Source: Desulfoscipio geothermicus
GTDB lineage: Bacteria > Bacillota > Desulfotomaculia > Desulfotomaculales > Desulfallaceae
Length of the DNA: 64,000 nt
Direction: 5' to 3'
Assembly: GCA_016841205.1 (NCBI GenBank)
Contig: JAENZP010000002.1
Location: 62,001 to 126,000, forward strand
The notes under the pieces were generated by a model, which was not told the DNA's origin, did not search any database, and was given only the letters and a program-made list of their open reading frames with translations. The translations under genes were made by a program, and so were the position numbers. Positions 5,888 through 19,734 of the stretch are shown here, piece by piece (position 1 is the stretch's first letter; every line of letters begins with the position of its first letter).

Positions 5888-7152
5888 TATTTAGCTCCAA
5901 TCATTTTATTAACTATATGACCACTGAAATTTCTCAAATTATCATATATCAGCAACATGTTTATAATATTAAAGTTTTCCAAATTTTTTCCGTATGATAA
6001 TTTTTCTCTCATTATTTTATATTCAATCTTTATACGAGTATCAATATGCAAATTTTTTATTTCTAAATTAGGGTAAATGTAATGCCCGGTTTTTCTTGCT
6101 AGTAGACAAGCGTTTAAATAATTGACTTTTTTCTTTTTAATTTCTTGTGATGAAAAAATTTGCAATGGATTAACTTCTTCAATATTAAGAATATCGCTAT
6201 GATTTTTGATTACATTAAGACCCTTTTCCGTTCTAACAATTATGTTTGAATTTCCCAGATTTGATTTTTTTTCAGGTATATAGCAATCGCCAAATGATAT
6301 ATCGGCTAATTTATTTAACTTATCCAAACAAAATAAGCACCTGTTTAATTGAAAGTATTTTTTTAAGGTCATTCTTATGTTACGATTAACAATAAGCTCT
6401 TCTCCACTTGTAAAAGTTATTTTTGTATCACCGGGCCATTCACTTTTATCTTTGTCTCTAAAATTAAACTTAAATATCTTTCTGCCTTTACCTTCGTATT
6501 TATATTTATAATACTGAAGAATATTATAATTTAATACTTTATCGCAGAATAAGCCAAAATATAAAATATGCGAGTCGTTTAATTTGAAGTGGTTAAAATA
6601 TTTTTTTATACCGTAAATCTGGCAGGGTGTTCCGACAACAATTACAGGATTCTGTTCACATGTACCGCTCTTAATCACATTTTCCACAGATGCCGGAATA
6701 TATTTGGATTTTGCAGCAGCCATTACTTCAGCCGGATTATTTGCATAAGAAAGTTTGGCCGGAGATATATCATTGCCATCATAATTTAAAATAAACGCTC
6801 CTGAATAATCTCCACACTCTAGCAATGCGACAATAAGAGCGCTTACCACACCGCCGCTAGTTGATATGCTCCTGATATATGTATCTTTTGCACTGCACAC
6901 ATAAGACTTTATGACATTTCCAGTTATGTAATCCTTTTTTACACCATTGAGAAAATTATAATTAACCTCAATTCCCGGACAGACAGCAACACATACCCCA
7001 CAATTCGAACAATTATCTGAAATGCTGGGATGATATTGACCATTGGAAAAGACTAAATCAATCGCCCCTTTAGGGCATGATGCTTTACAAATACCACATG
7101 AAACACATAAATCCAATTCCACAGTCTTGCTAACATTTCTGATTTTTTTCAT
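5887..7152 (-). CDS. Fe-S flavoprotein, coenzyme F420 hydrogenase/dehydrogenase beta-subunit family
   Basis: 421 aa. Two N-terminal 4Fe-4S ferredoxin motifs (CVSCGICKASCP and CSNCGVCVAVCP) are followed by an FrhB N/C-type domain with the segment VVGTPCQIYGIKK and further Cys (LFCDK, NRCLFCLDK). Proteins of this family occur widely in surface polysaccharide loci of bacteria that lack F420, where their substrate is unknown. Here the gene is coupled to a pyruvyl transferase gene, which suggests a redox step on the pyruvylated glycan or its precursor (inference). It overlaps the Wzx gene by 23 bp. Confidence 0.85.
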   Translation of the reverse strand: MKKIRNVSKTVELDLCVSCGICKASCPKGAIDLVFSNGQYHPSISDNCSNCGVCVAVCPGIEVNYNFLNGVKKDYITGNVIKSYVCSAKDTYIRSISTSGGVVSALIVALLECGDYSGAFILNYDGNDISPAKLSYANNPAEVMAAAKSKYIPASVENVIKSGTCEQNPVIVVGTPCQIYGIKKYFNHFKLNDSHILYFGLFCDKVLNYNILQYYKYKYEGKGRKIFKFNFRDKDKSEWPGDTKITFTSGEELIVNRNIRMTLKKYFQLNRCLFCLDKLNKLADISFGDCYIPEKKSNLGNSNIIVRTEKGLNVIKNHSDILNIEEVNPLQIFSSQEIKKKKVNYLNACLLARKTGHYIYPNLEIKNLHIDTRIKIEYKIMREKLSYGKNLENFNIINMLLIYDNLRNFSGHIVNKMIGAK

Positions 7153-8623
7153 ACATCAAACCCCTATTTTTTAAAAAAATTAATAACATATATGACTTTA
7201 TCTCTAAAACAATATTACGTTCCAGAAACCATTCCATCGTAATATAACTTAGCATGCCAATAAGAATTGATCCCAAAAGAAGAATTAAAGAAGTAAACCC
7301 GCTTGCAATTTTTTGAAAAACTATAACCATAAAAACCATTAGCAAGGACGATATTAAAATGTTTTTTAAAAAGCCCACTTTTATTTTTTTCGCCGATAAC
7401 ATTTTACTTGCAAAGTACTGCAAACTTATTGTTTTATATATTACAAAAAGCGAATACGACACAACTATGGCAGTTAATCCTTTTGAAATTACACAATACA
7501 AAGTGGCAAAATATATAAAGTTAGTTACTATCTCAATATAAAATACAACCTTTGGTTTATTAACGCTGTATAATAATGATGTAGCCATATTTGCGGTAAG
7601 CAGTTTAAATATAAGCGACAGTGATACAATTTGAAACACAATTACACTGGGCTTCCACTCATCTCCAAAAATTAAAGGTACAAATAGATGTGCCGTAACA
7701 GCAATACCTATAAATACGGGAAATGCCAACACCGCTATATACTTAGACATTTTATTGTATGTAACCGTTAACAACTCCGGATTGTTTTTTATTTTTGATA
7801 GCATTGGGAAAACAATACCGGTAAAAGATGCCGTAATAAGTTCTCTTAATTTTTCCAACAGGTTTTTACCGAAGTAGTAAACACCCAGGATTTCAGGAGA
7901 TAAAAACCGTCCAACAATAATTATGTCTAAACGTTCCGCTATTACTGTTAACACTTGCTTGCCGGATACATACAATCCAAAGCTTAAAAACACATGGATT
8001 TCTTTAATACTGAAATGAAAAAGTAAACTTATAAGCCTTTTTTTTAAACATATATATATAATTACAGTTGAGCCTACCAGGACAGAAAGTATCATGGCAA
8101 AAATAACGCCGTTAACACCGTAATTCAAAAATAATAACACGCTTGATACTATAACAATTAATAGGTTTTTAATAATTTCCACCAAGGCTAATTCCTTAAA
8201 TAACAACTCCTTTTGCAGCAGCGCGACAAATAATTGAACCGGCCCATTTACAATTGCATACATAGCAACATACCTTAGGGATACAATCAATTCCGGCAGC
8301 GAAAAATAAGCGGATAGCGCCGGAGCTAAAAAATACACTGCCCCTCCTGTAAGAAGAGAAAAAATGATATTAAAGAATAATAAAGATGAAGCCTCTTTAT
8401 TGCTTATTGAATCTCTTTGAATTATTGCTTGACTAATTCCAAAACTACTTATTGTATTAAACACACTAATAAACATCATTACTATAGCTAAACTTGCAAA
8501 TTCCCTGGCATTTAGCAGTCTTGCCTGTATAATCTGAAGTACCGGTGTACACAGCGCCATGGAAATTGTCTGCATAGTTGTCCATTTTATACCGTTCATG
8601 GCCCGGTTTCGTAAACTATTCAA
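7130..8623 (-). CDS. Wzx-type oligosaccharide flippase
   Basis: 497-aa MATE/MOP superfamily polysaccharide transporter with about 14 predicted helices. The N-terminal pattern (MNGIKWTTMQTI, then QIIQARLL) is typical of the RfbX/Wzx/MviN-like family. It presumably flips an undecaprenyl-linked repeat unit across the cytoplasmic membrane. The longest frame starts with TTG at 8623, overlapping the upstream GT stop. An ATG eight codons inside (8599) is also possible, and neither has a strong ribosome-binding site. Confidence 0.88.
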   Translation of the reverse strand: MNSLRNRAMNGIKWTTMQTISMALCTPVLQIIQARLLNAREFASLAIVMMFISVFNTISSFGISQAIIQRDSISNKEASSLLFFNIIFSLLTGGAVYFLAPALSAYFSLPELIVSLRYVAMYAIVNGPVQLFVALLQKELLFKELALVEIIKNLLIVIVSSVLLFLNYGVNGVIFAMILSVLVGSTVIIYICLKKRLISLLFHFSIKEIHVFLSFGLYVSGKQVLTVIAERLDIIIVGRFLSPEILGVYYFGKNLLEKLRELITASFTGIVFPMLSKIKNNPELLTVTYNKMSKYIAVLAFPVFIGIAVTAHLFVPLIFGDEWKPSVIVFQIVSLSLIFKLLTANMATSLLYSVNKPKVVFYIEIVTNFIYFATLYCVISKGLTAIVVSYSLFVIYKTISLQYFASKMLSAKKIKVGFLKNILISSLLMVFMVIVFQKIASGFTSLILLLGSILIGMLSYITMEWFLERNIVLEIKSYMLLIFLKNRGLMYEKNQKC

Positions 8624-9708
8624 CTATTAACAACCATCCATTGATAAAAATTGCAATATTGAAGTGAAATATTGTTCCATTGATACTCGCTCAAATTTTG
8701 TTTTGCACAGGGCATTTTAACTGATTGAGCTATATAGTTTGCTATTTCTTTCGGAGAGATTCGATCAGCTTCAACAGCTTTAACATTTTTCAAAAGTTCG
8801 GCTAATTCACTTAACGCGGTAGAACTATTAATTAAAACCGGCTTTCCTGCTACCAGACCCTCAATAACGGTTAAACCAAATGACTCCAGCCTGGAAAAAT
8901 TTAAAACCAAATCACATGTTTTATACCACCGGTAAACTTCCTCATTTTTTAGCCGGCCAAGAAAGTTCACTCTATTACCTAAATTAAGTTTCGCGGCAAT
9001 TTTCTCCAATTGATGCCGGTATGGCCCTTCCCCGATTATCAGCAGGCGAAAATCCGCGGGGAGATAAGGCATGGCCTGAATAACCAGGTGAATGTTTTTA
9101 TATTTTTCCTGCCTGCTAACTATAAGCAGACAGATCCCTGTTTTATCATAAGGTTCGGCATTTATCAGATCGTCATATGAAACACCGTTTGGAATCACAG
9201 TTATTTTTTGGGCAGGGACGCCAAAATGCTTATTTATTAAGTCTGCTTCAAAATGACTAACAGAAGTAACCGCATGCGCTTTCGCTAGGAAATTTTTAAT
9301 AAACGGCCTGTACAGCCGTAACAGCAAAGAAGATAAACGTGTTTTACCACGCCCGTGATAATGACCGGTCATTACCAATTTACATCCTTTGATTTGCTTA
9401 GCTGAACTTAACGCCATGTGAGGTACAAATGTATGCAGGTTATGGGCGTGAACTATATCATAACGGTGGAAATTATTTTTGAGATAATTCACTAGTGATC
9501 GAGAAAAGTAAAATACCCCATTTTGAGAAAATCTTTTAACAGTAACACCATTTACATCTTCAATAACAGGAGAGTTATTTAACGGGTCAACGGTAAGAAC
9601 ATCTACTTGATGTCCTTGTTTTATCATTTCTTCACTAATTTGTTTTACAACAGTTTCCACACCGCCTATATAGGGGTGATACCTAGGTGTTACCTGTGCT
9701 ATATACAT
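8620..9708 (-). CDS. Glycosyltransferase family 4
   Basis: 362-aa GT-B retaining glycosyltransferase. It starts MYIAQVTPRYHPYIGGVET, a classic GT4 N-terminus with the glycine-rich acceptor loop, and has LLIVSRQEKYKN in the hinge and ESFGLTVIEG as the donor-binding E-x7-E. It overlaps neighbours on both sides (10 bp upstream, 4 bp downstream), so it is part of a tightly packed operon. The donor and acceptor sugars cannot be read from sequence. Confidence 0.9.
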   Translation of the reverse strand: MYIAQVTPRYHPYIGGVETVVKQISEEMIKQGHQVDVLTVDPLNNSPVIEDVNGVTVKRFSQNGVFYFSRSLVNYLKNNFHRYDIVHAHNLHTFVPHMALSSAKQIKGCKLVMTGHYHGRGKTRLSSLLLRLYRPFIKNFLAKAHAVTSVSHFEADLINKHFGVPAQKITVIPNGVSYDDLINAEPYDKTGICLLIVSRQEKYKNIHLVIQAMPYLPADFRLLIIGEGPYRHQLEKIAAKLNLGNRVNFLGRLKNEEVYRWYKTCDLVLNFSRLESFGLTVIEGLVAGKPVLINSSTALSELAELLKNVKAVEADRISPKEIANYIAQSVKMPCAKQNLSEYQWNNISLQYCNFYQWMVVNS

Positions 9709-10889
9709 TTTGCACTCGCCATTCCTTTATCCATTTCAGCTATTATATGCTCATATTTTTTAACTATAGATTCCCAGGATGCGCCTGTATACCGGTACGC
9801 CCGTACTCCATTTATGAACCAACTGTCATACGCTTTAATGAGCCTGTCGCAAAGGGCGTCTACGTCACCTGCCGGAAAGAACTCCGCCCCGCCGTAACCG
9901 TTGAGATACTCACTCATCGTATCAAGATCTGACGTAATTACCGGTTTACCCTGAGCCACCGCAATATTGATTACCCCGCTGCCGCAGGTGCGCAGGTATG
10001 GCAATACGACCACGTCTGAAGCGGCAAAGTATTTCGGGACACTTTCGTCAGGGATGAACTCCGGCCTGAAGATAACCCTGTCACGGTAGGGCGAGTTCTC
10101 CAAAACCGGTATGAGCTCCGTATCGTCCCCCCAGTCTTCGCCGGCTATAATCAAATGCATATTGCCCGCAGTTTCCGGGGGAATTTTATTGAATGCCCTG
10201 ACCAACAGAGACACTCCTTTGTACTGGCGAATCATTCCGAAATACAGAATGGTAAAACCATACAGGTCCATTTCCTCTCTGGCAAGCCCTCTGTTCAATT
10301 TTCCATACGTATTGAACGGTCCGAGGGGAACAACATCGATCTTGGCCTCAGCTAACTTATAAGTATTGATAATGGCTCGCCTGGCTTCCTCCGAGTGGGC
10401 CGTGTAAGAGTCGCACAGCTTCAGTATTGCTTTTCCCCCCAACCTGGAGTAAAGCCTAATGGGTAGTATCTTTTCCTCCAGGGTATCAACCACTTCATGC
10501 ATCTCAAGAATCAAGCGAAACTTATTTCCGCTCATCTGCTTACTCATAGCCAAAAGAAACTGCATATGCGCAACAGAAGAAGTCCACCAGTGCATTATTA
10601 CCACTTCCGGTTTTTGATTTTGCAGAAAGCGGTATGCCCCGTACCATGATCCGGGTGAATTCCAATCCATACCGTTATATACTGTTATGTCAGGATGAAA
10701 ATCTATCCGGCATTCCTCTTTGCCTACACGTGCTCTCCCGGGGTAAAGGAACAACGGCACCAGGTTACGCAATAAAATAACAGATACTTTATACCCCTGT
10801 TCGGCAAATGCATTAGCCATGACAATTGTATAAGCGGATATTCCACTAAAAAACTTTTTTGAAGATCCAACCAGACAAATCCTCATCAT
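9699..10889 (-). CDS. Glycosyltransferase family 4
   Basis: About 397 aa, GT-B fold. MRICLVGSSKKFFSGISAYT forms the N-terminal loop, ILYFGMIRQYKGVSLLVRAF the hinge, and the C-terminal half has FIPDESVPKYFAASDVVVLP with a late Gly-Ser-Gly (RTCGSGVINIAVAQG) replacing the commoner EPFG sequence, as in several GT4 subgroups. I prefer the ATG at 10889 (after TAGGTGGGG) to the upstream GTG at 10895. The start overlaps the stop of the GT2 gene. Confidence 0.87.
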   Translation of the reverse strand: MMRICLVGSSKKFFSGISAYTIVMANAFAEQGYKVSVILLRNLVPLFLYPGRARVGKEECRIDFHPDITVYNGMDWNSPGSWYGAYRFLQNQKPEVVIMHWWTSSVAHMQFLLAMSKQMSGNKFRLILEMHEVVDTLEEKILPIRLYSRLGGKAILKLCDSYTAHSEEARRAIINTYKLAEAKIDVVPLGPFNTYGKLNRGLAREEMDLYGFTILYFGMIRQYKGVSLLVRAFNKIPPETAGNMHLIIAGEDWGDDTELIPVLENSPYRDRVIFRPEFIPDESVPKYFAASDVVVLPYLRTCGSGVINIAVAQGKPVITSDLDTMSEYLNGYGGAEFFPAGDVDALCDRLIKAYDSWFINGVRAYRYTGASWESIVKKYEHIIAEMDKGMASAKCI

Positions 10890-11602
10890 CCCCACCTATT
10901 TAAACTTGGCTTTTCCAGCCGCTGAAATAAAAGTGGGAAATGCCTTAGTATAGTTAGGCAAATCCTATATCCGTCCCGTAATCCGTTTAGTTTGGCTTCG
11001 CCCAGCCTATCTCTATATATGATGTGAATATCCTTGACCCGTAATCCCATTCTCGCGGCTTTTATACAAATCTCCGATTCTATACCAAAACCCTTGGACT
11101 CCAGACTCATGACTTCGAGAAATTTTTTCTTCAATCCATACAGGCCTGTTAACGGATCATATCCTTTAAACCCGAATATATATCTAATGCTGTTTCTAAA
11201 AATGGCATTTCCGATTCGATTAAAAGCCGGAATATTTTTCTTCCCCATTTTCCGGGACGCCAAAGCCATATCAAACCATTCCAGTGCTTTTGCTATCTCA
11301 ATTATTCCTTCCGGGGGATAGGTGTTATCCGCATCAATAAAAATTACGTTTTCCCCCTTGGCTTCTTTAATGCCGGTTTTCATTGCCTCACCTTTACCTG
11401 AATTCCGAACATGAGAAACCAATCGGCAGGGAAATTGCTCCGCAACTTCCCGCGTCCTATCTGTTGAGCCGTCATCCACAACAATAACTTCAAAGCTATT
11501 ATCAATTAACTGAAAAACATCTTTAAGCACTACCGGAAGTCCTGCTTCTTCGTTGTACGCAGGTATAATAATGCTATTCCTTATCTCAAAATGAGAACTC
11601 AT
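10886..11602 (-). CDS. Glycosyltransferase family 2, dolichol-phosphate mannosyltransferase-like
   Basis: 238-aa GT-A fold enzyme. It has IIPAYNEE at the start of the Rossmann half, the nucleotide-binding VVDDGSTD, and the metal-binding DADNTYP. The later SRKMGKKNIPAFNRIGN and DPLTGLYGLKK resemble DPM1/polyprenyl-phosphate hexosyltransferases rather than processive enzymes. No membrane helices are present. Because a polyprenyl-reductase-like gene precedes it, a role in loading a polyprenyl phosphate is attractive (inference). An AGGAG-type site precedes the ATG. Confidence 0.88.
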   Translation of the reverse strand: MSSHFEIRNSIIIPAYNEEAGLPVVLKDVFQLIDNSFEVIVVDDGSTDRTREVAEQFPCRLVSHVRNSGKGEAMKTGIKEAKGENVIFIDADNTYPPEGIIEIAKALEWFDMALASRKMGKKNIPAFNRIGNAIFRNSIRYIFGFKGYDPLTGLYGLKKKFLEVMSLESKGFGIESEICIKAARMGLRVKDIHIIYRDRLGEAKLNGLRDGYRICLTILRHFPLLFQRLEKPSLNRWG

Positions 11603-11633
11603 AAAACCACTCCTTCTATAGTTGAGGGCCGGT

Positions 11634-12824
11634 CTAGCAGTAGTTCAGTATCTTTTTGAAACCGGCTATAAAAAACCTCTCCGCCCAAGGCCTGGCGATA
11701 GATAATCTGCCTGCCAACCACGATGGATAGTCGATATCGCCATACCTGGATATGATACTTTGCCATAAGGGACGGTTAAAAAAATGGATTAATGTGTCTA
11801 TTTCCTTGTCGGACATACTTAAAAAAATACGTCTGTGCTCGAGGGCTGTCTGTATCTCATCCGCCATCTCCCTTTCCCATAACCACTGGTACTCTGCAAG
11901 AAACTCTGAGGATAGATTTCCTTTGGAGAGCGCTTTAGCTGCCACTTTAGCGCAAAGTTTTGCGCCCAACAGCCCAAGATACAGCCCCCCCCCTGATATG
12001 GGCTTGGTCTGGCAGGCAGCATCCCCTACCAGCAAGGTTCTCTCACCGTAAATTCCGGGAAACATACCGATGGGGACAACGCCACCCGTGCTGTAGAGAA
12101 TCTTCACGCCCTTAAAAATATCGGGATAGGCCTCCAGCATTCTATTAAAGTAATATTTCGAATGCTTGTCCCCCCCGCTTACACCGACCCCTACCCTTGC
12201 ATGCTTTTCGTCAACCGGTATAACCCAGCCGAACCAGCCCGGCGCAATCTCCCTGCCCAGGAATATGTGCACCATATCTTTTTCCGAGCACTTCAGCTCC
12301 ACTTCGGCCGCACACATGCGGATTACTTCATGCGGCGCGGAAGTATTGATCCGGCGGGCAACGCGTGAGTTGGCCCCGTCGGCACCGATCAGTAAACGGG
12401 CTCCGGCTGTAAACTCTCCACCGGAAGATTTAAACTTTACGCCGGTCACACCGGGAAAAAAATCACCTACTTCTGCCCTGACCCCGGTCAGTATTTCCGC
12501 TCCGGCAGACTGAGCCCTTTTCGACAAGTTACGATCAAATTCCGGGCGGTCGATCACCAGAGCATATGGCTCTTTATCTCTAATATAAAGCACTTCCCCG
12601 CCTGGAGAGTGGACAAAAGCGCCATGAATCCGGTTAATGATTATAGCATCCGGCATAGCAGCGGCTTTCAAGGTTCTGGGACTAACGAGCCCTGCACACT
12701 GCATGGGCTCGCCAATTTTCCGGTGCTCCTCGGCTACCAGAACCTGATAACCTTTTTCAGCAATAATTCGAGCTGTCTCACAGCCCGCCGGGCCTCCACC
12801 AATTACTATGACATCATAATTCAT
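11634..12824 (-). CDS. Geranylgeranyl reductase family FAD-dependent oxidoreductase
   Basis: 396 aa. The FAD-binding Rossmann start is GGGPAGCETA with an acidic strand end (VAEEH). It has the second FAD motif GADGANSRVARR and the C-terminal LLVGDAACQTKPISGGG characteristic of the ChlP/geranylgeranyl reductase group. The family reduces double bonds of prenyl chains (chlorophyll tail, archaeal lipids, menaquinone, dolichol). In a glycan operon next to a DPM-like GT2, saturation of the lipid carrier is a reasonable but unproven job. It lies 43 bp after the 85-aa peptide gene, with no convincing terminator between them. Confidence 0.88.
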   Translation of the reverse strand: MNYDVIVIGGGPAGCETARIIAEKGYQVLVAEEHRKIGEPMQCAGLVSPRTLKAAAMPDAIIINRIHGAFVHSPGGEVLYIRDKEPYALVIDRPEFDRNLSKRAQSAGAEILTGVRAEVGDFFPGVTGVKFKSSGGEFTAGARLLIGADGANSRVARRINTSAPHEVIRMCAAEVELKCSEKDMVHIFLGREIAPGWFGWVIPVDEKHARVGVGVSGGDKHSKYYFNRMLEAYPDIFKGVKILYSTGGVVPIGMFPGIYGERTLLVGDAACQTKPISGGGLYLGLLGAKLCAKVAAKALSKGNLSSEFLAEYQWLWEREMADEIQTALEHRRIFLSMSDKEIDTLIHFFNRPLWQSIISRYGDIDYPSWLAGRLSIARPWAERFFIAGFKKILNYC

Positions 12825-12867: not shown

Positions 12868-13125
12868 TTAAAGGATATTTGCTATTTGTGCAAAAACAAC
12901 GGACACAAAAACCATTGACAATGGAACGATACCAACATTTAAGGCCCTATCCAATGCGCCAGGCAGAGTAAACTCCGGAGCGGATGAGTTCCCCGAGACT
13001 GCCCCCGCCAATTCCTTTGCGGTAAGGAGCGCAATCAAGGCTAATGCGGCAATCAGACCGAACCCGGCCACTGTGGCAGCCGTACTTGCGGCAGTTGTAG
13101 TTACGGTGGTTACTGTCGAAATCAT
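12868..13125 (-). CDS. Small hydrophobic two-helix protein, first gene of the exopolysaccharide operon
   Basis: 85 aa. The N-terminal 18 residues are almost all Thr, Ala, Val and Ser. A first helix (about residues 19-38) is followed by a short polar loop with Asn, Ser, Pro and Glu, then a second helix (about residues 62-84). There is no cleavable signal with a polar C-region. The gene is preceded by a GGGGGGAG-type ribosome-binding site and the box-array promoter at 13216-13299. I do not recognise a named family. Direct membership of the agr regulon is inferred from the promoter, and the protein is a candidate membrane scaffold or regulator for the following glycosyltransferases. Confidence 0.72.
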   Translation of the reverse strand: MISTVTTVTTTAASTAATVAGFGLIAALALIALLTAKELAGAVSGNSSAPEFTLPGALDRALNVGIVPLSMVFVSVVFAQIANIL

Positions 13126-13215: not shown

Positions 13216-13299
13216 AAGATAACAAATATAGCCATAATCGTCTATATTTATTGTCTAAAAGACCTAATATCTTGTCCGCTTCTAGCGAAATTTGGTCTG
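13216..13299 (-). promoter_or_regulatory. Predicted LytTR-box array and promoter (locus 1)
   Basis: Read on the plus strand, four GTCYA/GTCTG boxes start at 13240, 13253, 13274 and 13295, so the spacings are 13, 21 and 21 bp. On the transcribed (minus) strand the box nearest the gene is the -35 (TAGACG, 13239-13244). It is followed by a 17-bp spacer and a -10 (TATCTT, 13216-13221). The 21-bp period equals the centre spacing of the two direct repeats known for AgrA/ComE-type LytTR regulators. The same geometry occurs at 14512 and 19598. Direct binding by the RR at 14620-15387 is inference. Confidence 0.72.
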
Positions 13300-13329
13300 G
13301 ATCTGCATTGATTCAAAGGCATTAACAAA

Positions 13330-13360
13330 AAATAAAGGGTTCACTAAGAACCCTTTATTT
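13330..13360 (-). terminator. Rho-independent terminator
   Basis: A 13-bp perfect stem (AAATAAAGGGTTC / GAACCCTTTATTT) with a 5-nt loop. On the minus strand it is followed by a T run, placing it 25 bp after the stop of the 339-aa secreted protein gene. It also separates that gene from the locus 1 promoter. Confidence 0.85.
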
Positions 13361-13385
13361 TCCAAGCATAATGTTGCCGTTAATA

Positions 13386-14405
13386 TCATTTGCCCCCGGT
13401 AACATGAACAGTTCCCTGGTAAACCCAATTTGTATCAGGGTCGCCTATATATGCCCGGAACGTTGTTTTACCCTTGGTTACCCCCGTTAAAGTTTTTGTT
13501 AAATCATTAGCCGCTGCCACACCGGCGTCATCTACTTGCCAATGAAATACATATCCGGCCAGGGAGAAGCCCAGAACCGATAATTCTAACGGCATCGTGT
13601 CTCCGGCTTTCAGATTAATGTTGTGATCCCACTCATTCCCTTCTTTAAGGAAGTGGGATTCCGACCGGACGTATGCTTTCAAAAGAGCAATTTCACCGGC
13701 ATAGCCCGGATCCACTTGGGCGCTGATAAGGTCTTTTGCTTCTACCAGTTTGTCGATGCTCCATCCTATAGCGCCGAGTTTGTCCGGGAAAGAACTGTAC
13801 CGGCCGGTGGCGGCTATCGTTAAGGCATCCCGGCTCCATCCCACCATAGCGCTGCGTACCTGCACGTAGTCTCCGGAAGCAAGGGCAATTAAACCCGAAA
13901 TATTATTTGTAATTACGTTCGGAATCTCCCCTTTGGCTGCCAGTAAATAGCCATACAGATCGTCGATGGTAAAATCGTTTCCAAACAGCGCCGTGATCGT
14001 ACTAACATGCTGCCTCTTAAATTCCTCCATACTTTTCCTCAGCCGGCTTGGTTCGTCGGAATAATAGACATCCGCAAGATCACAGACAAAATCGATTATT
14101 TTTTCCTTGGCCGCGGCCTCTCCACCCAGTCTGGCCATTACCTGGTTAGTCAGTAATACAGCAAAAATATCCGGCCACGGAGCGCTGTCAGGATCCCTGC
14201 TTAGATTGGCAAGCTTTGCTTTAACCGAAACCACGTCGCTCACTCCATCAGGATCAAGGACCAACTGTTCATAAACATTCACTAATTGTTTTTCCAGATC
14301 ATTAAACTCTCCGGCCTGAGCCAGGGGCGGTGTCAGGCTAAAAGCCAAACTGAAAACCGTAAGCGCGCACAGCATAAGCACAGTTATCCGCTTTCTCAAT
14401 ACCAT
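13386..14405 (-). CDS. Secreted protein of unknown function with C-terminal Ig-like region
   Basis: 339 aa. A clear Sec signal peptide (MVLRKRITVLML... to AQAG, cleavage near residue 31) is followed by a mostly alpha-helical region of about 220 residues. The C-terminal segment (about 255-337) is beta-rich with alternating Thr/Val (DAGVAAAND, LTGVTKGKTTF, TVHVTG) and reads like a bacterial Ig-like domain. I recognise no catalytic motif. An AAAGGAGG site precedes the ATG. The gene stands alone between a terminator and its own box-array promoter (14488-14550), so it is a probable target of the agr system. Confidence 0.8.
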   Translation of the reverse strand: MVLRKRITVLMLCALTVFSLAFSLTPPLAQAGEFNDLEKQLVNVYEQLVLDPDGVSDVVSVKAKLANLSRDPDSAPWPDIFAVLLTNQVMARLGGEAAAKEKIIDFVCDLADVYYSDEPSRLRKSMEEFKRQHVSTITALFGNDFTIDDLYGYLLAAKGEIPNVITNNISGLIALASGDYVQVRSAMVGWSRDALTIAATGRYSSFPDKLGAIGWSIDKLVEAKDLISAQVDPGYAGEIALLKAYVRSESHFLKEGNEWDHNINLKAGDTMPLELSVLGFSLAGYVFHWQVDDAGVAAANDLTKTLTGVTKGKTTFRAYIGDPDTNWVYQGTVHVTGGK

Positions 14406-14487
14406 TTACCTCCTTTTAAGCACTATCAGCTCTTGCAGCAATAATTTTGGCTTCACCTCCAGAAACATTTTTACAAATTGCAAATTC

Positions 14488-14550
14488 AAGTTAGCAATAT
14501 TGACACTAATTGTCTATATTTATTGTCTAGATGTAGCAATATAGTGTCTA
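14488..14550 (-). promoter_or_regulatory. Predicted LytTR-box array and promoter (locus 2)
   Basis: GTCTA boxes start at 14512, 14525 and 14546 (plus-strand reading), spaced 13 and 21 bp. A fourth at the expected 14567 is not recognisable. The gene-proximal box forms the -35 TAGACA (14511-14516), then 17 bp and a weak -10 TAACTT (14488-14493). It drives the 339-aa secreted protein. The first two boxes plus spacer (GTCTATATTTATTGTCTA) are identical to locus 1. Confidence 0.72.
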
Positions 14551-14587
14551 ATTCCAGTGATATATCATTTAAATTTGCATTGACTTT

Positions 14588-14621
14588 AAAAAAAAAAGAA
14601 GGATTCAATTTAGAACCCTTC
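14588..14621 (-). terminator. Rho-independent terminator of the agr operon
   Basis: On the minus strand GAAGGGTTC...GAATCCTTC (one mismatch) is followed by a run of about ten T. It overlaps the last codons and stop of the response regulator gene and ends transcription before the locus 2 box array. Confidence 0.8.
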
Positions 14622-15387
14622 AGCTACTCTTTAGAACTTTACTATTTGTCAATTCTTCAAGCTCCTTAAATTTTTCAACTGTTATTAAAGGCCTGTTCTT
14701 TGTATTTTCCATAACCAGTTCATAGCTGCTTCTGCTTGCCGGAACGAGTTCCTTGACCATCTTTAAATTCACAATGAACCCGCTATGGCTTCTGAAAAAT
14801 GGATATCCTTCCAGCTGCTTTTCAAGAGCGGATAGTTTGTCGTTTGTTTGAATTCGGCCACCGATAAAATAAATCGTGGTCTTGCGACCTTCCTTGGTGA
14901 CGTAGATGATGTCATCTAGATTCAAATAAACAAATTTACCGTTATTTCTAAATAGCTGTTTTCTACCAACATTGCCATCGGGATTTTTTAAGTAAGCATT
15001 TGGCCTGTCGGCAAATTTCCCGGACAGCACCAGTCTGATCCTATCCATTGTCTGCCTGATCCGGTTCATTTTAAAAGGCTTGACAAGATAGTCAAAAGCA
15101 TAAACATCAATAGCTTCACCCCTGAACTCGCTAAAAGCCGTGGCAAATACAATAAAAGTCCAAGGGTTAATATCAAATATTTCCCGGGCCAATTCAACAC
15201 CGTTTTTTCCCGGAAGGTCGATATCCAAAAAAGCCACTTGAGGCGATAATTCTTTAATCAACTTTATTGCTTCCAGCCCATCCCCGGCTTCGCCAATGAC
15301 GCTTACACCTTCAACTTCTTCAACCACCTTCCTGATCACCAAACGCATATCCGGATCGTCTTCTGCAATAAAGACAGTTATTTTCAC
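14620..15387 (-). CDS. agrA: LytTR-family response regulator of the agr system
   Basis: 255 aa. The receiver domain (1-125) has the acidic pocket AEDD, the phosphoacceptor in FLDIDLPG (Asp55 by count) and the switch Lys in DYLVKPF. A linker follows, then a LytTR DNA-binding domain (about 150-250) with YVTKEGRKTTIYF and FFRSHSGFIVNL. GTG start with GGGGAGG six bases upstream, 14 bp after the agrD stop. It is the obvious partner of the AgrC-like kinase. LytTR proteins bind pairs of direct repeats about 21 bp apart, which matches the three box arrays found nearby. Confidence 0.92.
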   Translation of the reverse strand: MKITVFIAEDDPDMRLVIRKVVEEVEGVSVIGEAGDGLEAIKLIKELSPQVAFLDIDLPGKNGVELAREIFDINPWTFIVFATAFSEFRGEAIDVYAFDYLVKPFKMNRIRQTMDRIRLVLSGKFADRPNAYLKNPDGNVGRKQLFRNNGKFVYLNLDDIIYVTKEGRKTTIYFIGGRIQTNDKLSALEKQLEGYPFFRSHSGFIVNLKMVKELVPASRSSYELVMENTKNRPLITVEKFKELEELTNSKVLKSS

Positions 15388-15401
15388 GGGTAACCTCCCC
15401 T

Positions 15402-15542
15402 TTATTCACATTTATCAGGAGGAGCCGGCTGGTAAAACCAAAAAAAACAGACCGGCTTTATGCCGATAACAGCGACAAAAAGGGCCAACGTAACGACAGG
15501 TGTAAACATTAATCTCTTAATTATTTTAACGGTCAGCTTCAT
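15402..15542 (-). CDS. agrD: AgrD-like cyclic autoinducer peptide precursor
   Basis: 46 aa, missed by a length cut-off. It has the three parts of AgrD: an amphipathic/hydrophobic N-terminal leader (MKLTVKIIKR then a Leu/Val/Ala-rich stretch ending VIGIKP), a core beginning with Cys (CFFWF), and a charged Pro-rich tail (YQPAPPDKCE) comparable to the YQP/HQPE-P tails of clostridial AgrD. By analogy with clostridial precursors the thiolactone ring would be the five residues CFFWF; this is inferred. A second Cys (residue 45) in the tail is unusual. It overlaps the agrB 3' end by 17 bp and has GGAGG ten bases before its ATG. Confidence 0.88.
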   Translation of the reverse strand: MKLTVKIIKRLMFTPVVTLALFVAVIGIKPVCFFWFYQPAPPDKCE

Positions 15543-16194
15543 TGGCTTGATACCTCCTTTCCATAAATAATCCTGTTAAGCCTGCCAAGAGATTATCTAA
15601 TTGATGTACGATTTTATATCCCGGGGGTGAGAAACTGATTGTCTGAGTCATGACGGCAATAAGGCCCGCCAGAGCAAGGGATGAGCCGGCATAGCGCAGA
15701 ACAATTATACTGACCCCTAACCATAAACTAAGATAGACCACTGAAAGAACTTTAAACATATTTCTTTCAGTAATATTTGTAATCTTTTTATAAGGCACTT
15801 CCCCCGGCACCAAGGCCAAAACACAAAGGAAGGATAATAAATATCCCGCCAGCAGTAAAAATACCGGTAAATTAATTGATAAATAACGTCCCAGGTATAT
15901 TCCCAGTTCTCCGGCACCAAGATAAGTAAAAACCCCCAGGGTAAGGCATCTCCAATACCCACTGCAGTGGGCTCCGCCGCTTAGAAGCCGGTAAACAGCT
16001 CCGCAAACCATGGCAAACGCCACTTCGGGAAGTATCCCAAGCAAGCGGGCCAGACTCAGAAGGATAATCCCCTTAATTAAAGCGGCAAAAATAATTTCCA
16101 AGCCAAAGCGCAGAGTATCGATTTTATTAGTATCCAGCGCCAGTTCCCTGGACAGGTAGTTAGCAGTTCTTCCGGCCAGTTGATTTAGATTCAT
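15526..16194 (-). CDS. agrB: AgrB-like peptide-processing membrane endopeptidase
   Basis: 222-aa integral membrane protein with about five to six helices (PF04647 type). The catalytic pair is visible in SGGAHCSGYWRC: His76 and Cys83 by count, almost the same positions as His77/Cys84 of Staphylococcus AgrB. It cleaves the AgrD tail and closes the thiolactone before export. It lies 11 bp after agrC and overlaps agrD. The length fits the family (about 190-225). Confidence 0.92.
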   Translation of the reverse strand: MNLNQLAGRTANYLSRELALDTNKIDTLRFGLEIIFAALIKGIILLSLARLLGILPEVAFAMVCGAVYRLLSGGAHCSGYWRCLTLGVFTYLGAGELGIYLGRYLSINLPVFLLLAGYLLSFLCVLALVPGEVPYKKITNITERNMFKVLSVVYLSLWLGVSIIVLRYAGSSLALAGLIAVMTQTISFSPPGYKIVHQLDNLLAGLTGLFMERRYQANEADR

Positions 16195-16205
16195 TTAACT
16201 CCACC

Positions 16206-17579
16206 TCATTTTATTACAGGTATTATAACGGTAAAGGTTGTTTCTTCAGCGCTGCTGCTAATGCTAATGTCACCCCGGTATTTGCTTACGATATCCTGGA
16301 CAATTGACAGGCCCAGACCGGAATGCCCTTCTTTAGTAGTAAAACCGGCTTTGAATATATCTTCTCTAACTTCGGGGACGATAGGGTCCCCTGTATTGCC
16401 GACTATGATTAAATATAACCCTTGCTCGCAGGTTATTTTTACTTTTACCCGCGTGCCCGCACCGGTTTTACCTTCCACGGCTCCCAGGGCGTTATCAATC
16501 AAGTTTCCAAGCAAGGAGCTTGCCTCATGAGGCGTTAAAGGCAATTCTCTGAGGCTGCATTCAACGGCTACTTCCATTTCTATATTTTTAGCTTCGGCCA
16601 GTCCCATTTTAGTGTAGAGAAGAGCGCTAATACTAAAATTATCGGTTCTTATCAACTCCCCGGTTTTGGATATTTCGCCGAATAACCCGCTTATATAATC
16701 CCGCGCTCTCTCATATAAGCCGGCCTCAAGCAGTCCGTAAATGGTCTGCAGCTGGTGATGAAAATCATGTCTCTGCTTTCTGGAAGAGTTAATCAATTGT
16801 TTGATCTGTTGTAAGTTTTCCTCCGCTCTCTTGGCCTCGTATTCCTTTTCCACATACTGTCCTATTTTTTTAACGGCGACAGTGGATAGGACAGTTAAAA
16901 AAATAATGAATATTCCAAAGATCCCGTTAAAGAGATCAAAACGTTCCCCTGGAAAAACATTCAACCTGGCAGCTTCAAAAGCCATGTTTAAGAGCGCCAG
17001 TAATAGTACGGGCAGGAGAACGACTATAAAGATCACCAAACTATGATTGTTAACAATGTCCGCATTCAAATTATCATGAATTTCTTTTCTTGATAAGTGT
17101 CTTAAAGTCCCATAATTTTGGGAATAACCGATCAAGGAAATATTAAAAAATTTACAGGCCACGATAAATATCAGCATAACCAAGGCCTGCGGAAGAAAGT
17201 AAAGAATTCTTATAAATGAATAATTCCAAACCTCGGCCAGTGAAAAACCTTCGATTTGCAGCATGAACTGTATTGCTACCGTTTCCACCGAGCCGTAAAA
17301 AATCAGGCCAAATAAAGATGCAAGTATAACTATCTTATATGGCAAGCGAGTAACCAGGCGAATATTTATAACAAATAAAATTATTCCAAGGATTGAGTGA
17401 AGCCCGAAAGGCACCGGCAAGAGCCGGATAATATAATCAAAACCCACCTGTAAAATTCCAATGATAATTAAGTCGGACCACCATGGCTTAAGTCCTACCA
17501 GCAAAAATCCCAGGGCGGCTACCAAGACCGCTTCAGGAAACGTAACCATTAACAGGGAAACGAGAGTCAATGTATTCAA
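16206..17579 (-). CDS. agrC: AgrC-like sensor histidine kinase
   Basis: 457 aa. The N-terminal half (about residues 5-225) has six or seven hydrophobic helices. A coiled segment follows, then a SpoOB-type DHp box RKQRHDFHHQL with phospho-His, an N box NLIDNALGAVEG and a G box GHSGLGLSIV (HATPase_c_5 type). This architecture is that of peptide-sensing AgrC/ComD kinases. It is the first gene of the four-gene agr operon, preceded by a very T-rich stretch on the plus strand and not by the GTCYA boxes, so no autoregulation is visible. Confidence 0.92.
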   Translation of the reverse strand: MNTLTLVSLLMVTFPEAVLVAALGFLLVGLKPWWSDLIIIGILQVGFDYIIRLLPVPFGLHSILGIILFVINIRLVTRLPYKIVILASLFGLIFYGSVETVAIQFMLQIEGFSLAEVWNYSFIRILYFLPQALVMLIFIVACKFFNISLIGYSQNYGTLRHLSRKEIHDNLNADIVNNHSLVIFIVVLLPVLLLALLNMAFEAARLNVFPGERFDLFNGIFGIFIIFLTVLSTVAVKKIGQYVEKEYEAKRAEENLQQIKQLINSSRKQRHDFHHQLQTIYGLLEAGLYERARDYISGLFGEISKTGELIRTDNFSISALLYTKMGLAEAKNIEMEVAVECSLRELPLTPHEASSLLGNLIDNALGAVEGKTGAGTRVKVKITCEQGLYLIIVGNTGDPIVPEVREDIFKAGFTTKEGHSGLGLSIVQDIVSKYRGDISISSSAEETTFTVIIPVIK

Positions 17580-17932
17580 AAACGGTAACCTTCTTTATTT
17601 CCTTATTTTAATTTTTACCTATTTTATATTATTTTTTGGTTTTTTTGTATTAATTTATTGTATATTTTACTTTAATTTTTATCTATTGAATATTAATTTT
17701 TTATTTTTTGCATTATTTTTCGACTTTTTTTTATATTATTTTTATATTAACTGAAAGTTATATTAATTAAAAAGCAGCCGGTTCCTGCTTACCATGTTTA
17801 AAAATTACTTTTTTTTGCCTAAAAATTTCTTTTTTTTATCTATATTTGCATAGGACATATAAAGAAGCACAAAAAAAACCGCTCCCAGGTCACTGGCAGC
17901 GTTGGCATAACCCGTCCTATATCTTAACATTT
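17580..17932. other. Gene-free AT-rich leader region upstream of agrC
   Basis: 353 bp without a convincing gene. Bases 17590-17760 are almost pure A/T with repeated T runs of 5-8 (plus strand), so agrC would be transcribed out of an A-tract-rich, probably curved segment. No GTCYA box array is seen here. The part nearer 17933 contains two further long T runs, which could act as the end signal of the CPBP gene, but I find no good hairpin. Confidence 0.5.
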
Positions 17933-18697
17933 TTATCTCAAAAGAAACGGCCATATAATGTATAAACCGATATTCGTTAACCCGTGAGCCAATGAGACAC
18001 CCAAAAGGGATCTAAAAAAGCCGGCAGCCATGGAAAAAAGCAGCGCAACGGTAAAAACGAAAATCAAGTCCACCGGTGAAAGGTGGGTGATGTGCAGCAC
18101 CCCGAATATGAAGCTGATATAAATAATGCCGTACCACTTGCCTAATGTCTCTACAGCCGCGCGATACATAACCCCGCGAAAGATAAATTCTTCCAAAAAC
18201 CCGGTGCTGACAAGCAGGATCAGCGCGGGAAGCCAAACATGCTGGAAAGTAAACTCCGTTACCAGAGGAGCGGGTTTTAGAATCAGATACTCCATCAAGC
18301 CCAGCGGCACACCAATAAGGGCCAGCGGCAACTGAAGGGGCAGATTGCCCAATGTCAGCCCGATTTCACGGGGCTTAAAGCCGGCAAATCTCATCACGGT
18401 AGCGGCAGCGGCAAAAAGCGGAAGACTAATGATCAGGTACCAATACATGATCGGAATGCCGTTCAGGGGTATAGACAGGCTCATAATTCGGATTAACGGG
18501 GCCAGGGACAAAGACAGATAGACCAGGTTTATTGCTTGCTTGTAAGCCAGGGAAGCATGTACAAGCAAGGCTATCAGCACAACCACATGACAGACGATCC
18601 CGTACAGCGGGTTGTAATAGGCTGTGATAATCTCCGCGGCAGTTATAACAGCCGCATACAACCAGATAAAAAAATGATCTTTATTATTCACGGACAT
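17933..18697 (-). CDS. CPBP-family intramembrane metalloprotease (Abi/CAAX-type)
   Basis: About 254 aa, polytopic. It has the three conserved CPBP motifs: EEFIFRG (E-E-x-x-x-R), FGVLH (F-x-x-x-H) and HGLTN (H-x-x-x-N). Family members cleave prenylated or bacteriocin-type substrates in the membrane; the substrate here is unknown. The open frame extends to 18823, but that extension would overlap the upstream gene by 140 bp, so I choose ATG 18697 (GGGTGG just before it), which leaves a 14-bp overlap. It is co-transcribed with the DUF1616 gene and so is probably part of the agr regulon. Confidence 0.87.
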   Translation of the reverse strand: MSVNNKDHFFIWLYAAVITAAEIITAYYNPLYGIVCHVVVLIALLVHASLAYKQAINLVYLSLSLAPLIRIMSLSIPLNGIPIMYWYLIISLPLFAAAATVMRFAGFKPREIGLTLGNLPLQLPLALIGVPLGLMEYLILKPAPLVTEFTFQHVWLPALILLVSTGFLEEFIFRGVMYRAAVETLGKWYGIIYISFIFGVLHITHLSPVDLIFVFTVALLFSMAAGFFRSLLGVSLAHGLTNIGLYIIWPFLLR

Positions 18698-19523
18698 CCA
18701 CCCACAAATGCAGAGAGCGATAGGGATCGCTCTCCCTGTTTTTAAATAGTAAAAACTCCACCTCCATATTTTCATGGGGCCTGTTAACGCTAAAGCTAAC
18801 GGGCTCTTCCCATTTTTCTTCATGGTTTAATTCAAAAGGACCCAACCGCTTTTTCAAATACCCGTTCATGCGCACCTCGGCTGTGTAAGAAACCGGACAA
18901 TATTCGTGGTTAACGGTTCCCAGGATAACTTCCTTTTCTTCACCCGCATTCATATCCCAGGGATAACCCTCTATCTTCCCTCCAGGCCCCAAAATATAAA
19001 ATTCCGTGAACTTCTCACCAACACTTGGTGAGGTTGCAACATAATAAAGGCTTCCCACCGCAAAAATAATAGACCCCACCAGTACTACCGAAAGAATTTT
19101 ATCCAGCCTGGAAAGGCTGCCCCATTTAACAATTTCTAAGTTTAAATCAACTACAAAACGTTTCTCGAAGGACAGCTTATTTCTTCGGTAGACTGTGATA
19201 ACGGACAGCAGGATTGTGAAAACCAACAACGTTAGCAATACGGGGTAAAGTCTTATTCCCCACGGGGTGTAGTTCAGGATGAGGCCAAGAAGCGGTACCA
19301 CGGCAATACTTAGACCGAAACTCAAGGCAGCCCGCTCAATGCCATCAATATCGCCCCTGGCCGGAAACAAAGCCGCTATTAAGGAATACCCGGGGAAAAA
19401 CAAGACAAAAGGCAATCCCAAGGCAACCGGCAAAGTTCCGCTCACATTAAAAACAATTAATACCAACAGGACAACAGAAATAAATAATATGAAGAAACAC
19501 TCGTTTTTTATTTTTATCCTCAA
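18684..19523 (-). CDS. DUF1616-family membrane protein
   Basis: 279 aa. Four to five N-terminal helices contain the family's PGYSLIAALFP and ERAALSFGLSIAVVPLLGL, followed after about residue 155 by an extracytoplasmic beta-rich domain (KFTEFYILGPGGKIEGYP and so on). DUF1616 proteins occur in envelope and glycosylation loci of Firmicutes and archaea; their biochemical role is not established. It is the first gene behind box-array promoter locus 3, with a short leader of about 45 nt. Confidence 0.85.
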   Translation of the reverse strand: MRIKIKNECFFILFISVVLLVLIVFNVSGTLPVALGLPFVLFFPGYSLIAALFPARGDIDGIERAALSFGLSIAVVPLLGLILNYTPWGIRLYPVLLTLLVFTILLSVITVYRRNKLSFEKRFVVDLNLEIVKWGSLSRLDKILSVVLVGSIIFAVGSLYYVATSPSVGEKFTEFYILGPGGKIEGYPWDMNAGEEKEVILGTVNHEYCPVSYTAEVRMNGYLKKRLGPFELNHEEKWEEPVSFSVNRPHENMEVEFLLFKNRESDPYRSLHLWVDVRE

Positions 19524-19573
19524 AAAAATTCAATCCCTTAAGCAGATTAAGGCGAAAAGATGTGGCATGTACT

Positions 19574-19657
19574 AAAATAACAACATTAAAGCCGGTTGTC
19601 CATGTTTATTGTCTAAAAACAGCAAAACTATGTCCAATTAATACATAATCTCGTCCA
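19574..19657 (-). promoter_or_regulatory. Predicted LytTR-box array and promoter (locus 3)
   Basis: Four GTCYA boxes start at 19598, 19611, 19632 and 19653 (13, 21, 21 bp), exactly as in locus 1. The gene-proximal box is the -35 TGGACA (19597-19602), then 17 bp and -10 TATTTT (19574-19579). The sequences between boxes differ from loci 1 and 2, so only spacing and boxes are conserved, which argues for function. It serves the DUF1616-CPBP pair. Confidence 0.72.
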
Positions 19658-19658
19658 G

Positions 19659-19734
19659 AAAGCTGAAGGGGTCAGACCTTGACATTTGACACGAAGTTAA
19701 GTGTCAAATGTCAAGGTCTGACCCCTTCAGCTTT
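19659..19734. repeat. GGGGTCAGACCTTGACA-type palindromic repeat, copy 1
   Basis: Perfect 34-bp inverted repeat with an 8-nt loop (19693-19700). The core GGGGTCAGACCTTGACA continues as TTTGACAC here and ATTGACAC at 50.6 and 62.3 kb. A T run follows, so it may double as a terminator for the symporter gene, but its sequence recurs at distant sites and it is best seen as a dispersed REP-like element. It abuts the fourth box of locus 3. Confidence 0.9.

Follow-up and report, generated by a model that had tools for sequence, protein, structure and literature searches.

The 64,000-nucleotide stretch of the Desulfoscipio geothermicus genome analysed here (the window, whose positions serve as coordinates throughout) carries an agr quorum-sensing locus, around which lie arrays of short, regularly phased repeats of the kind bound by LytTR-family regulators. 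The genes agrB and agrD and those for the kinase and the LytTR response regulator are contiguous, so that the agr gene set is complete. It comprises the AgrC sensor kinase (16206..17579; HATPase_c, SPOB_a and GHKL domains, with a weak match to the Staphylococcus AgrC model), AgrB (15526..16194; PF04647, E=7.5e-34), the AgrD pro-peptide (15402..15542; TIGR04223, E=3.4e-8, and alignments) and AgrA (14620..15387), which combines a receiver and a LytTR domain (Pfam Response_reg, 5.5e-23; LytTR, 3.8e-19). Every gene of the region lies on the minus strand, as do three arrays, P1, P2 and P3, each found directly past the preceding gene and ahead of a gene start; a fourth, degenerate array lies upstream of agrC. 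Judged by sequence, four operons of this single agr locus share a LytTR operator array of the AgrA type, which is conserved among relatives and predicts the locus.

Read 5′ to 3′, an array consists of two or, in its commonest form, three half-sites spaced 21 bp apart, with a −35 hexamer 13 bp past the proximal one. From the end of the proximal 9-mer to this TRGACR hexamer there are 10 bp, and 17 bp separate the −35 from a −10 of the extended type, TGNTAnnTT (TGNTAACTT). P1 (13216..13309, minus strand) has half-sites at 13294-13299, 13273-13278 and 13252-13257, a −35 TAGACG at 13239-13244 and the extended −10 TGTTATCTT (hexamer 13216-13221). Presumably it would drive the gene for an 85-aa hydrophobic protein (12868..13125, minus strand) and then an operon encoding a GGR-family reductase and glycosyltransferases. 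P2 (14488..14581, minus strand), the putative promoter of a secreted 339-aa protein (13386..14405, minus strand; signal peptide by eye), has half-sites at 14566-14571 (degenerate), 14545-14550 and 14524-14529, a −35 TAGACA at 14511-14516 and the extended −10 TGCTAACTT (hexamer 14488-14493). P3 (19573..19660, minus strand), with half-sites at 19652-19657, 19631-19636 and 19610-19615, a −35 TGGACA at 19597-19602 and the extended −10 TGTTATTTT (hexamer 19574-19579), is the putative promoter of an operon for a DUF1616 membrane protein (18684..19523; PF07760, E=1.8e-93) and a CPBP intramembrane protease (17933..18823; PF02517, E=4.1e-13), both on the minus strand.

A first, sequence-only reading of this DNA had described these elements as GTCYA boxes in 13-21-21 phasing (13-21 in the second array), each ending in TRGACR-N17-TANYTT, and on the minus strand all listed boxes, their phasing and the promoter hexamers are indeed present. 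GTCYA describes the boxes generally, but the distal ones of P1 are GTCCG and GTCTG, leaving only RGAC on the minus strand; the three boxes given for the second array exist, but there is a degenerate fourth, TAAATG at 14566-14571, which relatives keep as CAGAC or CAGAT; and the TANYTT hexamer belongs to a fuller, extended −10. The element at the 13-bp step, taken for a binding box, is the −35 hexamer itself, the half-sites proper being the 21-bp repeats, and the bases at that step, said to differ, form a stretch, TAGACAATAAAYAT, that is nearly identical in all three arrays.

The surroundings of the arrays include several hairpins. One resembling a terminator lies between agrA and P2 (14621-14598), and inspection shows comparable stems ahead of P1 and ahead of the agrC array. 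At 19659-19734, adjoining the distal half-site of P3, there is a perfect inverted repeat (34 bp with an 8-bp loop; AAAGCTGAAGGGGTCAGACCTTGACATTTGACAC). It apparently took the place of the TGCAAA flank that relatives have here, and it resembles a short palindrome of mobile or terminator type.

The arrays are rare in the genome. When the whole 3,382,841-bp genome was scanned for the exact pattern TRGAC-N8-TRGACR-N17-TANNTT, with the reversed pattern as control, three matches were found against a chance expectation of 0.08 from base composition, and the control gave 0. All three lie at the agr locus and none elsewhere, a result in favour of the sequence-only reading, which had proposed such a scan. 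With a model of 98 positions, the three window arrays, which together with their relatives formed its training set, score E=2e-21 to 6e-21, and the next best position in the genome reaches E=0.03. All array promoters of this genome are confined to the agr locus.

Published LytTR promoters have 9-bp direct repeats with a 12-bp gap, mostly 10 bp to the −35, and 13-17 bp from there to a −10 that is often extended (PMC6193735), and Staphylococcus aureus AgrA recognises two 9-bp sites 12 bp apart at its P2 promoter (PMC10482373). If the 9-mer is taken as ending at the G of TAG, the arrays have exactly this published geometry. It is also that of the HdrRM/BrsRM-type LytTR systems (PMC6193735), although these are pairs of a LytTR protein and a membrane inhibitor and not, as here, two-component quorum-sensing systems. 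As far as sequence can tell, the arrays are a textbook LytTR activator layout, with tandem half-sites on one face of the DNA.

Upstream regions aligned from four genomes provide a phylogenetic footprint, in which the conservation of P2 and P3 is centred on array and promoter and drops outside the array. Synteny extends over the whole block in G012, G008, Desulfocucumis palustris (L007), G029 and others (numbers of this kind are our own handles). Relatives keep a P2-type array immediately after agrA, and the array before DUF1616 recurs in 7 further genomes. P1 is retained in G012 and unrecognisable at the equivalent place in G008; arrays precede the GGR operon in G029, G101 and G097. Relatives also carry dispersed arrays, ahead of secreted repeat proteins, an amidase-domain protein, a copper-amine-oxidase N-terminal/SCP2 protein, a prepilin peptidase with pilus ATPases, and others. 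That all three window arrays fall within 6.4 kb and have TAGACAATAAAYAT in common could suggest recent duplications of a single promoter without regulatory meaning. We consider this highly improbable, as each promoter is closer to its own orthologue in other species than to its neighbours, including the bases past the −10; P2 and P3 are retained across genera despite divergence of their flanks; and the dispersed copies stand before unrelated genes.

According to the sequence-only reading, agrC lacked an array and the locus differed in this from Staphylococcus. The first statement is wrong and the contrast is not supported, since a degenerate array is present at 17770..17852 (minus strand). Its half-sites are TAGATA (17837-17842), TAGGCA (17816-17821) and TAAACA (17795-17800), with CAGGAA (17782-17787) at the −35 position of the other promoters. 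After a model, R1, had given weak matches just upstream of agrC in relatives, a second, R2, built from six relatives with the window left out of training, gave a match in the window at 17852-17770 (E=7.5e-17). The phasing is the same, 21-21-13, with a lag-21 self-identity of 71%. In the window this array is decayed and rich in A, whereas in relatives it is near-perfect; there the alignment shows a 21-bp tandem repeat, (CAGACAAGAAAATGTAACTTT)(TAGACAAGAAAATGTAACTTT)TAGACATGG, after which a conserved GCAGGA stands at the −35 position. In G090 and G092 an array lies between agrA and agrB. A putative AgrA-type operator is thus located at the agr operon itself, at agrC in the window and at agrB in these two genomes. 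Given the array at agrC, the system appears to regulate itself, as the Staphylococcus system does.

The GCAGGA motif is invariant in every agrC array, 13 bp past the last half-site; in the window it falls inside a terminator-like hairpin (17790-17772, overlapping CAGGAA), which is not so in other genomes. A sigma-54 promoter at the conserved GGCAGGA was considered and rejected, the GG-GC spacing being 11 or 12 among relatives.

The agrC arrays also bear on whether the element might mainly be an alternative-sigma promoter class, TAGACA-N17-TGCTAACTT, to which the upstream repeats are incidental. The −35/−10 block TRGACA...TGCTAACTT is the most conserved portion of the arrays, and the −35 is TRGACR in nearly all promoters, with two exceptions that read TTGACA or TTGACT. 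However, the upstream half-sites are conserved in phase, the agrC arrays retain the 21-bp repeats without such a −10, the hexamers could be recognised by sigma-70 with the help of an extended −10, and a more distant agr locus in G006 has TTGACT-N17-TAAAAT beneath the same repeats. We therefore give this explanation very little credence.

Across 113 genomes of the class, arrays were found in 16 at E<=1e-4 and an AgrA orthologue in 14 at E<=1e-90; in two further array genomes, G006 and G100, agrA is broken across contigs. Both array and AgrA occur in 15 genomes, AgrA only in 1, the array only in 1 and neither in 96 (Fisher P=1.4e-16, with no correction for shared ancestry). G109, the genome with AgrA only, carries a lower-scoring site directly downstream of agrA (E=2e-3). 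G006 and G100 were discarded as cases of arrays without AgrA, agrA fragments having been found beside the array or at a contig end. In G006, a lone LytTR fragment of agrA, 59% identical (G006:C66:16513-16922 and G006:C32:52638-52997), lies beside an array and is separate from that genome's more divergent agr locus, which suggests that a second agr copy was rearranged or degraded in this genome. G096 is the one real exception to the pairing of array and AgrA, its agr and DUF1616 genes having been lost or never present.

Instead of AgrA, some other LytTR protein or a further transcription factor of the genome might bind the arrays, with agr as just one of its target regions. The window genome encodes three LytTR proteins, thus two besides AgrA, and G096 retains arrays without an AgrA orthologue. 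On the other side, two congeners, G010 and G014, encode LytTR proteins yet have no arrays, arrays accompany the AgrA orthologue and are absent from 96 of the 97 genomes without it, and the window genome has none outside the agr locus. A different regulator is therefore improbable. Since the arrays follow agrA and not LytTR proteins generally, as G010 and G014 illustrate, binding by AgrA is the best inference.

The predictive value of the array was apparent when the array model alone was used as a blind probe of 398 genomes of the phylum (cut-off E<=1e-4). Its four matches were to the window genome, to G006, and to G256 and G466, which belong to other families and lie outside the class. In these two, the agr locus is complete, DUF1616, CPBP, agrCBDA and the GGR operon occur in the same order (the CPBP of G466 was matched only in part) and AgrA is 78-79% identical. 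Both have arrays ahead of DUF1616, the GGR operon and agrC, those at agrC with E=1e-18 and 1e-17. A probe derived from promoters thus found agr loci in G256 and G466, and the array retrieves the signalling locus.

We propose that phosphorylated AgrA activates all four operons via the arrays, giving autoinduction, a reading to which we assign a probability of roughly 0.87. The candidate agr regulon with LytTR-phased operators, as put forward in the sequence-only reading, is strongly supported by the scan, the co-occurrence with AgrA and the blind retrieval of two agr loci; that AgrA binds, that it activates and does not repress, and what the target genes do are inferred. In the proposed mechanism, AgrD peptide processed by AgrB would build up and lead AgrC to phosphorylate AgrA, whose dimers would occupy the half-sites and bring in RNA polymerase at four operons. 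These are the agrCBDA operon, for autoinduction, with a weak operator in the window strain; DUF1616-CPBP, possibly providing an MroQ-like step in maturation of the autoinducing peptide (AIP); the gene for the secreted 339-aa protein; and that for the 85-aa protein with the glycosyltransferase operon.

Several observations weigh against this proposal. The general LytTR 9-bp consensus is [TA][AC][CA]GTTN[AG][TG]. The half-site core of the arrays is of the type AACTTTTAG, usually extended to ...TAGACA. This form, frequent in relatives, agrees with the consensus at 8 of 9 positions by inspection, whereas the window cores fit at only ~6-7 of 9. No obvious or conserved −10 follows the agrC array, so that activation there is no more than a possibility. 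The co-occurrence is uncorrected for phylogeny or for a cassette travelling as one block. Finally, the near-complete genome G096 has three strong arrays (C1:1833373-1833464, C2:795655-795747 and C2:1067130-1067199) with no AgrA orthologue and no DUF1616; these may be used by another regulator, or be remnants of an orphaned regulon.

The proposed AgrA regulon is similar to the S. aureus agr system in its AgrBDCA components, in 9-bp direct repeats 12 bp apart and in having an array at the agr operon as well. In S. aureus each operator consists of a pair, and the agr promoter spacers measure 18 and 20 bp (PMC4227749); here, in contrast, there are mostly three half-sites, a 17-bp spacer, an extended −10 and the gene order agrC-B-D-A. 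No RNAIII was seen, the targets being a protease, a secreted protein and a glycosyltransferase operon, and the S. aureus AgrA DNA-contact residues H169 and N201 are not conserved (alignment and inspection). Among Clostridia, RgaR of C. difficile and VirR of C. perfringens act on LytTR-family boxes, one of them regulating agrB1D1, with a critical G at −51 and −72, 21 bp apart as here (PMC10602386). RgaR does not serve as the AgrD1 receptor pathway, and clostridial Agr has been argued to be generally not autoregulatory (PMC10602386); unlike in that picture, the array here lies at agrC itself, or at agrB in relatives.

The signal core of AgrD is likely CFFWF, followed by YQPAPP. The core [C/S]FFWF-YQPAPP is identical across at least five families (L007, L009, L010, L110, L112, L113, L165, L166), and other relatives have SFFHW or SFFTL; by sequence, one AgrD pherotype is common to several families, unlike the Staphylococcus groups. 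The CPBP protease has the motifs EExxxR, FxxxH and HxxxN (EEFIFR, FGVLH, HGLTN). In S. aureus, MroQ removes the AgrD leader (PMC10482373), and it likewise is a CPBP-family membrane protease encoded beside agr, with EExxxR and FxxxH motifs. The gene described here differs in standing in an operon with DUF1616 under an array; as a suggestion only, drawn from this analogy, its product could act like MroQ in AgrD leader removal.

Less can be said of the other products. The 339-aa protein has no Pfam or NCBIfam match, and its AlphaFold2 model, from two sequences, reached a pLDDT of 51; homologues form the N-terminal part of 600-940-aa open frames in genomes without the array. The 85-aa protein, conserved in relatives, has no Pfam or NCBIfam family match either. 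Downstream of P1, the genes for the GGR-family reductase, a GT2 and two GT4 glycosyltransferases and a flippase (7130..12824, minus strand; family matches and synteny in relatives) presumably constitute a polysaccharide-type operon. Many products of the genes behind dispersed arrays in relatives seem to be secreted, but with a simple heuristic, signal peptides were not significantly enriched among array-driven genes (10/32 versus 19/102, P=0.10).

Control of LytTR type is already known; the three tandem half-sites and the set of targets appear undescribed, the open-access literature having yielded nothing relevant on agr in Desulfotomaculum or Pelotomaculum or on triple LytTR half-sites. The locus offers a sequence-defined agr regulon, with its promoter architecture, in environmental strict anaerobes, for which the literature searched holds almost nothing about agr, and the array is a ready probe with which agr loci in other families have already been located. 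Because the operator sits at agrC or agrB itself, the finding bears on the stated question of clostridial agr autoinduction, and it links agr with an operon of polysaccharide type; regulon, autoregulation and polysaccharide link are useful to specialists and testable by them. A further idea, doubtful at present, is that of a self-contained cassette with a three-half-site AgrA operator and a CFFWF AIP in at least five families, allowing joint induction of polysaccharide between anaerobe species. If this were true, different species of anaerobic communities would jointly switch on surface polysaccharide.

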